A DNA stretch of 64,000 bases from an uncultured Allomuricauda sp. (GTDB lineage Bacteria > Bacteroidota > Bacteroidia > Flavobacteriales > Flavobacteriaceae): positions 62,001-126,000 of the forward strand of contig NZ_CANLYK010000004.1 of the NCBI RefSeq assembly GCF_947495325.1, read 5' to 3'. Every line of letters begins with the position of its first letter. The first letter of the stretch is position 1. This document shows positions 45,722 through 49,028 of the stretch, piece after piece. The translations under genes were made by a program, and so were the position numbers. Under the pieces are notes generated by a model that saw only the letters and a list, made by a program, of their open reading frames with translations, was not told the origin of the DNA and ran no database searches.

Positions 45722-45753
45722 AAAAGCCCGCTTCCTAAAGGAAGCGGGCTTTT
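45722..45753. terminator. Bidirectional terminator after tsf
   Basis: A 14-bp stem, AAAAGCCCGCTTCC with GGAAGCGGGCTTTT, around TAAA, between convergent tsf and the second DUF4097 gene. One of the strongest hairpins in the window. Confidence 0.95.
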
Positions 45754-45779
45754 TATTTGTAGTACAACTAGTGGTGGTC

Positions 45780-46589
45780 TTATTTTGATTTTATCAAAAT
45801 ATCGCCATTAAAGGTTTTAAAGAGCATTTCGGGTCCACCCCCATTTATCTTACCCCTCACCCACTGTTCCAGCTTAACTTTATATGTGCCTGATGAGCTA
45901 TTTTTATTCACTTCAGGTTTATTTACCACAACCTGCATATCAAAATCTGTAAAAATCTCTCCCATATCGGACTTTGCCTTTACATCAGCTTTTAATGAGC
46001 TTGGAAAGATAATCTCTACATCACCATTTAAACTACTAAAAGCCATATTGGCATCGCTATCAATACTATTGAATTCAACCTTTATATCTCCATTAACAGT
46101 ATCTGTGGAAGCGGAACCACTTACGGATTTCAAAGTTATTTCACCATTAACATTACTGATTTCCATTTCTCCATTAACTCCTATAACGGAAATGTCGCCA
46201 TCATTGACAGTAGATAGTTTAAGTGAAAAGTCCTTAGGCACTTTTACATCCAAATTCGTAATCTTATTCCACTGTTCATTAATAATGTGAACCACATTGT
46301 TCTTTTCCTCCGCACCTATATTTAAAGAGGAACCTTCAATGCGTTTCATGCCCTCTCTATTATTCTTTTCTTTATAATGATGTTTTTCACTCCCAAAGGA
46401 TGCCTTTACAACCACTTCCTTCCCTTCGTAAGCTGCTACGCTTATAGAACCAGAGATTTGATCTACAACCAATTTTCCTGGACTGCTTGGATTACTTAAA
46501 GGAACCGAAAATAGATTTATACTTTTTTCCTGCGCCGATAAATTACTTGTAAAAAATGCAACAGCAATTAGTAGTATTATTTTTTTCAT
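45780..46589 (-). CDS. Secreted DUF4097-type beta-strand repeat protein (second copy)
   Basis: The 269-residue product has a Sec signal (MKKIILLIAVAFFTSNLSAQ) and then a run of short repeated beta strands of the DUF4097 kind, with recurring NGE/NGD turns: VNDGDISVIGVNGEMEIS, NVNGEITLKSVSGS, TVNGDIKVEF and SLNGDVEIIF, ending TFNGDILIKSK. It should form a single-stranded right-handed beta solenoid in the envelope. The frame opens at 46622 but the ATG at 46589 starts the signal peptide. It begins 4 bases after the stop of its paralogue upstream and shares the block GEIFTDFDM with it. Last gene of the sigma-factor cassette. Molecular function unknown. Confidence 0.82.
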   Translation of the reverse strand: MKKIILLIAVAFFTSNLSAQEKSINLFSVPLSNPSSPGKLVVDQISGSISVAAYEGKEVVVKASFGSEKHHYKEKNNREGMKRIEGSSLNIGAEEKNNVVHIINEQWNKITNLDVKVPKDFSLKLSTVNDGDISVIGVNGEMEISNVNGEITLKSVSGSASTDTVNGDIKVEFNSIDSDANMAFSSLNGDVEIIFPSSLKADVKAKSDMGEIFTDFDMQVVVNKPEVNKNSSSGTYKVKLEQWVRGKINGGGPEMLFKTFNGDILIKSK

Positions 46590-46593
46590 GACA

Positions 46594-47454
46594 TTATATT
46601 TTTTTGATGAATACATTTCCATTTAAAGTTTCAAAGTCAAATTCAACTTGACCACTTCCAATTTGCACAACAGGTTTGGCCTCAAATTTGTATTTCGCCT
46701 TACCTCCCTGTTCTTTATTGGTTTTCATAAATTGTTTGTTAATATCAAAATCCGTGAACATTTCCCCGTTCATGCTTTTAAAGGAAATATTTGCCGATAG
46801 TGCTTTTTGGTATGATATATTGATGTCTCCATTCAAAGAATAATATTTCGAAGGACTTTTTGGGTTTTCGGTATACGAAATATTAACAGCCCCATTGATA
46901 CAATTTACCTTCGTTTTTCCTGTAACATTACTGAGCGTAATCCCTCCATTTACATTTTCTGCCTGTAAATAAGTTCCCTTGGTGTTTTTAACTGAAACTT
47001 CACCATTGTTCACTGTACTTACATTAATCTGGACCGAATAAGGCACCTTGATTTTAAAGTCCATTTGATGTTCATAAGGCGGTTCTTGATAATTATTGCA
47101 CCAGTTATATTTAAGTTGATTTTTATCAAACTCAATATAAGGTGCATCGGGGTGCAAGAATACCTTATCATCCTCCTGAATAACTTGAAGTGATAGTTCT
47201 TGTTTTCCCAACTCCAAATCCGTGGAGTCGTCGGCCGTAATTGTTTTTTCAACAGCAACCATAATCGTACTTCCGCTATACCCTTCCACCGAAATAGAAC
47301 CAAAAACATTTTTTACTATTATCGTATTTTCCGTACTGTTGGAAAACGGTATTTCTTTTTTAATTACCTCTGTAAATTCCCCTTTCTGTGCTTCTGTGCA
47401 TTGTATGCCTACCAATGAGGATAGACATACCATAAAAATTAATTGCTTCATCAT
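46594..47454 (-). CDS. Secreted DUF4097-type beta-strand repeat protein (first copy)
   Basis: The 286-residue product is a paralogue of the next gene. It has a Sec signal (MKQLIFMVCLSSLVGIQC, probably cut after TEAQ; the lipobox is poor) followed by the repeat pattern VNNGEVSVKNTKGTYL, NVNGGITLSNVTGK, CINGAVNISY and SLNGDINISY, the block GEMFTDFDI and the end TLNGNVFIKK. The two proteins align along their length, so the pair arose by tandem duplication. Two ATG codons stand at the start (47454 and 47451). It is the third gene of the ECF sigma cassette, 58 bases after the HEAT-repeat gene. It may sense or respond to envelope stress; that is inference. Confidence 0.82.
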   Translation of the reverse strand: MMKQLIFMVCLSSLVGIQCTEAQKGEFTEVIKKEIPFSNSTENTIIVKNVFGSISVEGYSGSTIMVAVEKTITADDSTDLELGKQELSLQVIQEDDKVFLHPDAPYIEFDKNQLKYNWCNNYQEPPYEHQMDFKIKVPYSVQINVSTVNNGEVSVKNTKGTYLQAENVNGGITLSNVTGKTKVNCINGAVNISYTENPKSPSKYYSLNGDINISYQKALSANISFKSMNGEMFTDFDINKQFMKTNKEQGGKAKYKFEAKPVVQIGSGQVEFDFETLNGNVFIKKI

Positions 47455-47512
47455 TTTTAAATTTGACTGTTCGTGATTTGATTTGTTCCAAATAGGACGA
47501 TTGATAAATAAA

Positions 47513-48307
47513 CTAGATTATTGATTCTATAGAATGCTCTATTTTTTTCTTGACCGTGGTATCCAATTGTTTTTCTTTTAATAGTTGTTTAAATGGTTCT
47601 ATTGATGCTTTTTCTTGTAAGGCAACCATAAGATTTGCCAATGTTATCTGCAAGATTGGGGATTCTTGATTAGGTATTGACTGTACCAATCCTTGACGAA
47701 CCAATGGATTGTCCACATAATTTGTCAACGACTCTATTGCTGCCAATCTAACATTTACATTAGAATCCTTATTTAAGGTTTGCAGCAACGCTTTGACCAC
47801 CATTTCATCAACATCTCCAACTTTATTCGCCTCACTAACTCCTTGCAATCGCTGATTAGCGGATGGTTGTTCTAAAAGGGTAAGAATCAACTTTTGACGT
47901 ACATCATCCGTTTCCGCATTGGACGCAGCAACTTCAATTGTATTCGTACTGTCAGAAGAATTCATATAATATCCAATTCCTAGGCCCAGCCCCAACAAAA
48001 GCACACCATAAGCCAATTGCGGTTTAAAAATTCCAGACAATCCTTGTAAAAACATACTCCAACCGCTTTTCTTAACCGTATTCTCCACTTCTTTGTTGAG
48101 CATATTAAAAAAGGTGTCATCCATTTTCGCAGAAGGTTCAGGGGTTTTCAACTCCTTCACCATCTTCCAAGTATCCACCAACTCATCAAACTGAGTTTGG
48201 TATTCAATATTTTCGTCTAAAAAAATTTTGAATTTTTTGCTATCCTCCTCAGACATAATTCCGGTCATATAATCCATGCATTGAAGCTCAAACTTTTCTT
48301 TATCCAT
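47513..48307 (-). CDS. Putative membrane anti-sigma factor with C-terminal HEAT repeats
   Basis: The 264-residue product has an N-terminal cytoplasmic segment of anti-sigma type (CMDYMTGIMSEEDSKKFKIF), but without the HxxxCxxC zinc motif, one membrane helix at about 95-115 (LAYGVLLLGLGLGIGYYM), and a periplasmic part of about 140 residues made of HEAT-like helix pairs (VVKALLQTLNKDSNVNVRLA, AAIESLTNYVDNPLVRQGLV). It starts 2 bases after the stop of the ECF sigma gene, so the two are translated together, the usual arrangement of sigma and anti-sigma. Binding of the sigma factor by the N-terminus and of an envelope ligand, perhaps the DUF4097 proteins, by the HEAT part is inference. Confidence 0.8.
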   Translation of the reverse strand: MDKEKFELQCMDYMTGIMSEEDSKKFKIFLDENIEYQTQFDELVDTWKMVKELKTPEPSAKMDDTFFNMLNKEVENTVKKSGWSMFLQGLSGIFKPQLAYGVLLLGLGLGIGYYMNSSDSTNTIEVAASNAETDDVRQKLILTLLEQPSANQRLQGVSEANKVGDVDEMVVKALLQTLNKDSNVNVRLAAIESLTNYVDNPLVRQGLVQSIPNQESPILQITLANLMVALQEKASIEPFKQLLKEKQLDTTVKKKIEHSIESII

Positions 48308-48309
48308 TT

Positions 48310-48864
48310 CTACCTTATTTCCAATTGTAAAAAAATTGTTCGTAAATCCTTTAGGGCTCTATGCACCCTTACTTTGGCAGCGCCTTCTGTACAACCAACA
48401 ATCTGTCCTATTTCGGCAAACTTCAAATCTCTATACTTACTTAAAATCAATAGTTCCCTTTTTTCCTTGGGTAATTTCTTCAAAGCCCGTTTCAACAAAA
48501 TCGTATTGCCCTCCATTTCAACTTTCTCATTTAGAAAATCATCAATCCCGGTTCTAACATCTTCAGGTGAAATTCCTTTTGAAACATTTTCCTTAACCGT
48601 CTTTTTATGATAATCGTAATTCACGTTTCTTGCCATCCTAAACATCCAAGCTGGAAATGAGCCATCACCTGTATACGACTCCTTATACTTTAGCATTCTT
48701 TCAAATACATTTTGAACCAAATCCTCACTAACTGAAGGGTTATTTCCCAAATTGTAAAAGAATCCGAACAATCTTTTTTTATGACGTTCGTACAGTAATC
48801 CCAGTTTATCCAAATCCCCAGATTTTACTTTGAGCATAAGAAAGTTGTCGGTTAGTGTCTGCAA
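48310..48864 (-). CDS. ECF-type RNA polymerase sigma factor
   Basis: The 184-residue product has sigma region 2 (LYERHKKRLFGFFYNLGNN, DLVQNVFERMLKYKESY, FPAWMFRMARNVNYDYHKK) and region 4 (LPKEKRELLILSKYRDLKFA, IGQIVGCTEGAAKVRVHRAL) with no region 3 or 1.1, the ECF layout. It leads a four-gene minus-strand operon with a HEAT-repeat anti-sigma-like protein and two secreted DUF4097 proteins. Such sigma factors usually direct their own operon. The 164-base gap to divergent pyrH should hold its promoter; no sigma-A consensus is visible on this strand, which would fit an autoregulated promoter. Confidence 0.93.
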   Translation of the reverse strand: MQTLTDNFLMLKVKSGDLDKLGLLYERHKKRLFGFFYNLGNNPSVSEDLVQNVFERMLKYKESYTGDGSFPAWMFRMARNVNYDYHKKTVKENVSKGISPEDVRTGIDDFLNEKVEMEGNTILLKRALKKLPKEKRELLILSKYRDLKFAEIGQIVGCTEGAAKVRVHRALKDLRTIFLQLEIR

Positions 48865-49028
48865 TTTGATTTTCTTGTTTTGGCTTGTTGAAGGATATAC
48901 TTTGGTTTTCCAAAAAGGTTACAGAATGTATGATTTTTTTTATTATTATATTCTTGAATCATATCTTTTTACAATAATTCTTCATAAATATTTTTGATTA
49001 TTTTTGTCCGGACTTCAAGATATCCTCA

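Follow-up and report, generated by a model that had tools for sequence, protein, structure and literature searches.

Signalling by an extracytoplasmic function (ECF) sigma factor and its anti-sigma factor is known from several operons that offer comparisons for the locus described here, a four-gene cassette in a 64,000-nucleotide stretch of DNA (the window) from an uncultured Allomuricauda sp. of the Flavobacteriaceae (NCBI RefSeq assembly GCF_947495325.1, contig NZ_CANLYK010000004.1, positions 62,001 to 126,000, forward strand). In SigW–RsiW and its kin, the sigma gene has an ECF-type promoter of its own and is directly followed by a gene for a membrane protein with an N-terminal helical anti-sigma domain; in the RpoE–RseA–RseB–RseC operon, a sigma factor and a membrane anti-sigma factor without a zinc motif are followed by genes for secreted partners, and in E. 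coli the secreted RseB is a partner that regulates RseA. Toastrack (DUF4097) proteins have been described in LiaFSR/LiaX and phage shock protein (PSP) contexts with an envelope-stress output, including an operonically linked sigma factor for which membrane stress signalling was proposed (Ravi et al. 2024, PMC11237479; this and the papers below are cited for sections of their text). The secreted LiaX of Enterococcus has a regulatory C-terminal part, the loss of which turns on LiaFSR (PMC10614854). Class I anti-sigma factors beside ECF sigma factors have been put at 6% in Bacteroidetes versus 32% over all phyla (PMC7406223).

The window cassette, whose layout resembles that of the RpoE operon, lies on the minus strand between tsf (end 45701) and pyrH (start 49029, opposite strand). 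At a probability of roughly 0.5, we read it as an autoregulated, envelope-sensing ECF/anti-sigma operon, with an extracytoplasmic HEAT domain as a sensor that binds protein and two secreted Toastrack proteins as its likeliest partners, which would be a new variation on a known signalling theme. It shares gene order and an ECF-type promoter with SigW–RsiW and differs in its HEAT outer part, its Toastracks and the loss of the zinc motif in the window's branch. The features are as follows.

48896..48923, minus strand: ECF-type promoter of the cassette, TGTAACCTTT ... GTATA, with 17 bases separating TGTAAC and GTAT
48310..48864, minus strand: ECF sigma factor, 184 amino acids, TTG start (Pfam Sigma70_r2 and Sigma70_r4_2)
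47513..48307, minus strand: membrane anti-sigma-like HEAT protein, 264 amino acids (profile–profile match, structure model, HEAT_2), with a zinc-less class I anti-sigma domain at about residues 1–80, a transmembrane helix at about 96–115 and a HEAT domain at about 130–264
46594..47454, minus strand: Toastrack A (DUF4097), predicted signal peptide (PF13349, E = 7.7e-9)
45780..46589, minus strand: Toastrack B (DUF4097), predicted signal peptide (PF13349, E = 2.1e-10; structure model; fold match to 4qrk)
45725..45760, no strand assigned: stem-loop and T-run in the gap where tsf and Toastrack B converge, seen directly in the sequence

A preliminary description, made from the letters alone, had placed four head-to-tail genes here with gaps of 2, 58 and 4 bases (sigma factor to HEAT protein to Toastrack A to Toastrack B), and all open reading frames and spacings were confirmed. 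The first gene, there called an ECF sigma factor, matched Sigma70_r2 at residues 24–89 (E = 2.9e-13) and Sigma70_r4_2 at residues 124–174 (E = 1.3e-12), both above the curated Pfam cut-offs, and thus has regions 2 and 4 only, as expected of the ECF group (group 4). The cassette is not peculiar to its own genome (4.1 Mb, 14 contigs), which has three DUF4097 places above cut-off: two belong to the window, and the third lies on contig 2 within a complete second set in the order sigma factor, HEAT protein and two Toastracks, the second Toastrack being recognized by its likeness to relatives and missed by Pfam. We refer to the window cassette as W and to its paralogue as P; both have relatives across the phylum. 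The TTG start stands at the identical place in 37 of 37 W-type sigma genes.

The P cassette ties the window's HEAT protein to solved anti-sigma factors. HEAT_2 was found in the W protein above its curated cut-off (E = 5.1e-7), and no Pfam model reached cut-off at its N terminus. The HxxxCxxC motif, which marks only the zinc-binding subset of class I anti-sigma domains and is not required for membership (PMC7406223), was present in 14 of 18 P HEAT proteins versus 0 of 37 W proteins, the window's included, in keeping with the earlier statement that the protein resembles an anti-sigma factor without the motif. Zf-HC2 scored above cut-off in all four P proteins submitted to Pfam, and a profile built from residues 1–80 of 16 P proteins matched RsiW in register (E = 8e-7, residues 6–78), as well as DdvA (6.7e-5) and chain B of 3hug (3.7e-4). 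Profile–profile comparison joined the W and P domains at E = 4.3e-15 across 79 columns (W residues 1–79). Because the P paralogue keeps the motif, the W protein can be connected through it to solved anti-sigma factors such as RsiW, and by this homology its N-terminal domain is a class I anti-sigma domain. Across the wider phylum, 7 of 22 W-type proteins and 2 of 15 of the P type carry the motif, which implies repeated gain or, more probably, repeated loss.

The HEAT domain had been placed outside the cell, and the predicted topology agrees: W HEAT proteins have a single hydrophobic helix near residue 97, and lysine and arginine are in excess before it relative to after it in 35 of 36 W proteins (one tie) and 11 of 17 P proteins (five ties), which supports an internal anti-sigma domain and an external HEAT domain. 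A model of the W protein built on 64 sequences (mean predicted local distance difference test score, pLDDT, 81; predicted template modelling score, pTM, 0.49) has helices at residues 3–15, 20–32, 34–52 and 60–78, the transmembrane helix at 96–115 and a HEAT solenoid at 130–263. The solenoid aligned with designed HEAT-like alphaRep proteins (Z = 14.5, 124 residues, root-mean-square deviation 3.0), a score that helical repeats often reach through shape alone; in a fold search with the whole model, designed and natural HEAT/ARM repeats filled the matches at residues 123–264, such that the N-terminal domain was barely probed. Across 32 cassettes, the HEAT domain was the slowest-evolving part (mean distance 0.185, versus 0.367 for the sigma factor, 0.451 and 0.461 for the Toastracks, 0.94 for the anti-sigma domain and 1.30 for the linker and transmembrane helix), which asks for a conserved partner outside.

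Both Toastracks exceeded the curated PF13349 cut-off, and 40 of 46 rows of the Toastrack B alignment matched this family at E values up to 0.01. A Toastrack B model (46 sequences, pLDDT 87, pTM 0.80) matched 4qrk (E = 2.5e-10; 'putative cell adhesion protein') and 3pet (3.2e-5; 'putative adhesin') by fold, other close solved structures being titled 'putative lipid binding protein' and 'putative pectinase'; a sequence-profile search of the PDB with Toastrack B gave nothing significant, leaving fold comparison as the source of these matches. With the PF13349 domain and the beta fold together, these are Toastrack proteins. By a simple hydropathy and cleavage-site test, 36 of 37 A and 37 of 37 B proteins of W cassettes are predicted to carry type I signal peptides, as are 18 of 18 P Toastracks at each position. 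The two had been described as a duplicated secreted pair: that they are paralogues with predicted signal peptides stands, whereas recent duplication does not, since a joint tree placed first- and second-position Toastracks of each cassette type in separate clades (0 to 2 misplaced rows each). Recent tandem duplication was accordingly set aside; the four clades are well supported, and the branching among them is weak (support 0.24).

Gene order and whole-set presence indicate that the four genes form one unit, as the preliminary description had proposed. We assessed 60 congeners (own genome included; record names Flagellimonas, Allomuricauda and Muricauda, all Flavobacteriaceae): W was present in 34, tsf and pyrH were adjacent without any cassette gene in 25, and one (G015, L096) retained a deletion scar that fuses the first part of the sigma gene to the last part of the Toastrack B gene. 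The W cassettes fetched first from the genus (19) and those found later (14) share both gene order and the tsf–pyrH site. On a quick tree of neighbouring housekeeping genes, W switches between present and absent 8 times (at least 7 going by starred branches); as it occupies one fixed site, the simplest explanation is that the unit was lost as a whole several times, although exchange by recombination may be an alternative. In a broader set, 80 of 237 loci were kept as named loci (Flagellimonas, Allomuricauda, Croceitalea, Maribacter, Saonia, Poritiphilus, Croceivirga, Polaribacter, Tenacibaculum and others), and 72 of these have the full order; the other eight comprise four cut by contig ends (L196, L225, L226 and L232), two with a gene split in two (L192 and L216) and two in which models found only one Toastrack (L234 and L236). 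Relatives of the HEAT profile (E of 1e-10) occurred in 58 of 395 phylum genomes and 31 of 171 genera, and 40 phylum regions, a sample conditioned on presence of the HEAT protein, yielded 43 cassettes: 37 have the full order, 4 gave a single Toastrack, 1 gave none and 1 is reordered as sigma–Toastrack–HEAT–Toastrack. A chance neighbourhood of four genes was considered and ruled out, order and presence being kept as a unit; the argument for one unit is that order is kept across the phylum and presence is all-or-none in congeners.

For the most part, the four genes have stayed together since an old duplication of the whole set. Among 36 genus genomes (own included), 19 have HEAT proteins of both types, 1 has W only, 12 P only and 4 neither. 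When 75 cassettes were assigned to types from their Toastracks, the types were kept apart by the sigma tree with two misplacements and by the HEAT tree with one; the Toastrack trees separated them too, but the types had been defined on these proteins.

Evidence from the promoter makes autoregulation likely, a possibility raised earlier from the mere lack of a visible sigma-A promoter and now backed by a positive ECF-type signal. Upstream of the sigma gene, TGTAAC is present in 37 of 37 W cassettes, with GTAT exactly 17 bases on in 35 (the two exceptions, Polaribacter-group cassettes, have GTTT or GTTC), and in 18 of 18 P cassettes, with (C/T)TAT in 14 and GTAT in 3 at equal spacing. The strict form TGTAACSTTT-N14-TATA had two matches in the 4.1-Mb own genome, one ahead of each cassette, from which autoregulation follows as the likely reading. 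In the 60 congeners it had 77 matches in 52 genomes (versus 26 for a reversed control pattern), of which 73 lie ahead of a W or P cassette (42 by genome coordinates, 14 at W cassettes found later and 17 at fetched P cassettes); of the remaining four, three (L299, L302 and L307) are not followed by a cassette gene and one, in G003, is unassigned. The four genomes known to lack both cassettes had no strict match, and the strict form is missing at 9 of 37 W and 4 of 18 P cassettes. Within 220 bases upstream of the sigma gene, TGTAAC was found in 31 of 43 phylum cassettes (2.7 expected by shuffling) and 77 of 78 named ones (5.5 expected). Allowing one mismatch in the own genome gave 9 matches (2 exact and 7 more) versus 19 for the reversed control, and we therefore claim no regulon beyond the two cassettes. 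A flavobacterial comparison is the ECF regulon SM6 of Flavobacterium psychrophilum (PMC9723704), which likewise has an ECF/anti-sigma pair and a promoter with a conserved −10 element, but which has a CGT −10 box and type IX secretion system targets, and in whose cited sections the Toastrack cassette is unnamed.

Gene content, predicted topology, promoter and co-inheritance, all read from sequence, together suggest how the cassette might work. In the resting state, the sigma factor would be kept at the inner membrane by the helical domain that the HEAT protein has in the cytoplasm (binding between the two is strongly suggested by homology and operon structure), and the extracytoplasmic HEAT domain would sense by binding protein, with the secreted Toastracks either keeping the anti-sigma factor in a holding state or reporting envelope damage to it. 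A change in the holding state would free the sigma factor to transcribe its own operon from TGTAAC-N17-GTATA, raising sigma factor, leash and Toastracks alike, a positive feedback with a built-in shut-off. We consider it most likely that the Toastracks are partners of the HEAT domain, given the layout, the strong conservation of that domain and the precedents of LiaX and RseB, and from the same considerations we infer that the signal comes from the envelope. In line with the LiaX precedent, the Toastracks of the window align with the C-terminal portion of the LiaX model, the portion described as regulatory, at E = 8e-8 and 1e-10, although far below that model's cut-off. A more sweeping version, which we hold only tentatively, would make this a phylum-wide signalling class: a HEAT domain on an anti-sigma factor reading the state of two co-encoded secreted Toastracks, which would carry the signal in the periplasm during an envelope response of Bacteroidota, with ancient paralogous cassettes, sometimes neighbours, cross-regulating each other through a common promoter type.

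The main rival to this scheme concerns the role of the Toastracks. They could instead be outputs, secreted envelope protectors made on demand, with the HEAT domain sensing misfolded envelope protein or a cell-wall or lipopolysaccharide component and the sigma/anti-sigma core unchanged. HEAT-like folds bind many protein ligands, the HEAT model matches such folds, and the Toastracks, as last genes of an operon whose strict promoter is almost confined to cassettes (73 of 77), would be its main predicted products. Outputs could just as well sit elsewhere, yet 38 of 43 phylum cassettes hold two Toastrack genes beside the HEAT gene (37 of them in the usual order and 1 in a changed order), and these are lost together with it; we regard the output explanation as possible but somewhat doubtful. 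Partnership between HEAT domain and Toastracks nevertheless has evidence to answer. Ravi et al. (PMC11237479) argue in the sections cited for an intracellular Toastrack in the systems of their study, whereas the cassette Toastracks bear signal peptides. In rate co-variation across the 32 cassettes, all pairs of parts were correlated (partial r = 0.30 to 0.61), the sigma–Toastrack A pair (0.61) reached as high as the sigma–anti-sigma domain pair (0.60) and the HEAT–Toastrack pair was not singled out. Since every pair correlates, we dropped this measure as a test of HEAT–Toastrack pairing.

Other observations weigh against the regulatory core of the proposed operon. TGTAAC-N17-GTATA stands ahead of rpoD in 29 of 30 congeners examined, including four without either cassette; in the own genome this conserved, cassette-independent site, one of the seven one-mismatch matches, lies at C3:39207 (L287:1501-1528), about 45 bases before the start of the primary sigma gene (relatives, L308-L337). 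The promoter type is therefore not exclusive, and another sigma factor can use such sites. Autoregulation might then be illusory, with a different resident ECF sigma factor reading the TGTAAC promoter in a hierarchy while the cassette sigma factor acts on different promoters. This seems unlikely to us, because the own genome has the strict form at its two cassettes and at no other place, the four genomes known to lack both have none, and TGTAAC precedes the cassette sigma gene phylum-wide well beyond what shuffling gives. As to the anti-sigma domain, the W profile alone found no significant solved anti-sigma factor in the PDB (3hug at E = 0.7); with the zinc motif lost and the N-terminal domain diverging fast, the HEAT protein could be a membrane scaffold or co-activator merely descended from an anti-sigma factor. 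We consider this very improbable: the cited sections of PMC7406223 find the Hx3Cx2C motif in about 48% of membrane-bound class I anti-sigma factors, leaving about half without it, and describe groups mixing zinc and zinc-less members; the motif comes and goes inside both cassette types; and, among the five other parts, the rates of the anti-sigma domain track those of the sigma factor most closely (partial r = 0.60).

Assignment to other described systems did not hold. No RseA or RseB Pfam match appeared in the four proteins at E values up to 1, separating the cassette from the RpoE–RseA system at the level of families. Unlike in LiaFSR and PSP contexts, an ECF/anti-sigma pair replaces LiaRS and the Toastracks carry signal peptides; Pfam gave no LiaRS, LiaF (LiaF-TM), PspA or PspC domain in the four genes, which are flanked by tsf and pyrH. 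The four proteins had no FecR Pfam match and the cassette no TonB receptor gene, setting it apart from FecR/TonB systems. The terms 'HEAT repeat' and 'anti-sigma' do not occur in the main text of PMC11237479, and no description of the cassette was found in the open-access literature searched (supplements and most subscription journals lying outside), although the sigma factor may already hold an ECF group number. The four-gene module carries its own promoter, occurs twice in many genomes and is cleanly missing from sister species, which makes it a natural experiment and a small testable system; the proposed operon would give a role to secreted Toastracks, whose nearest solved structures bear only 'putative' titles.

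Several further observations concern individual loci. W-like and P-like cassettes adjoin in three phylum loci (in tandem in L239, divergently in L240 and L246), an arrangement that hints at common control. The P set of the own genome is followed on the other strand by a gene that we take to be DUF423-like, and about 1.7 kb separate the sigma and HEAT genes in the P cassette of G348 (L296). Among W cassettes, that of an uncultured Muricauda metagenome-assembled genome (G003, L068/L216) has an internal stop in the HEAT gene and, ahead of Toastrack A, an insert of about 1.3 kb of additional DNA, and about 1.5 kb of extra DNA separates tsf from Toastrack B in G023 (L062). The rpoD site raises the possibility that some ECF sigma factor may drive the housekeeping sigma gene; many congeners (G002, G016, G019, G034 and others) have between two and four RpoD-like genes, with identities of about 83%, 65% and 55% to the main gene.

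Within the window, the start of Toastrack B was taken as the ATG of MKKII; an in-frame ATG further up, at 46622, would overlap Toastrack A by 29 nucleotides. The stem-loop at 45725..45760 is likely a terminator common to tsf and Toastrack B. At the other end of the cassette, TATTTTTG at 48999-49006 (plus strand), in a stretch conserved ahead of pyrH, fits the flavobacterial sigma-A box TAnnTTTG (PMC9723704), and this box and the cassette promoter point apart within one 164-base gap.

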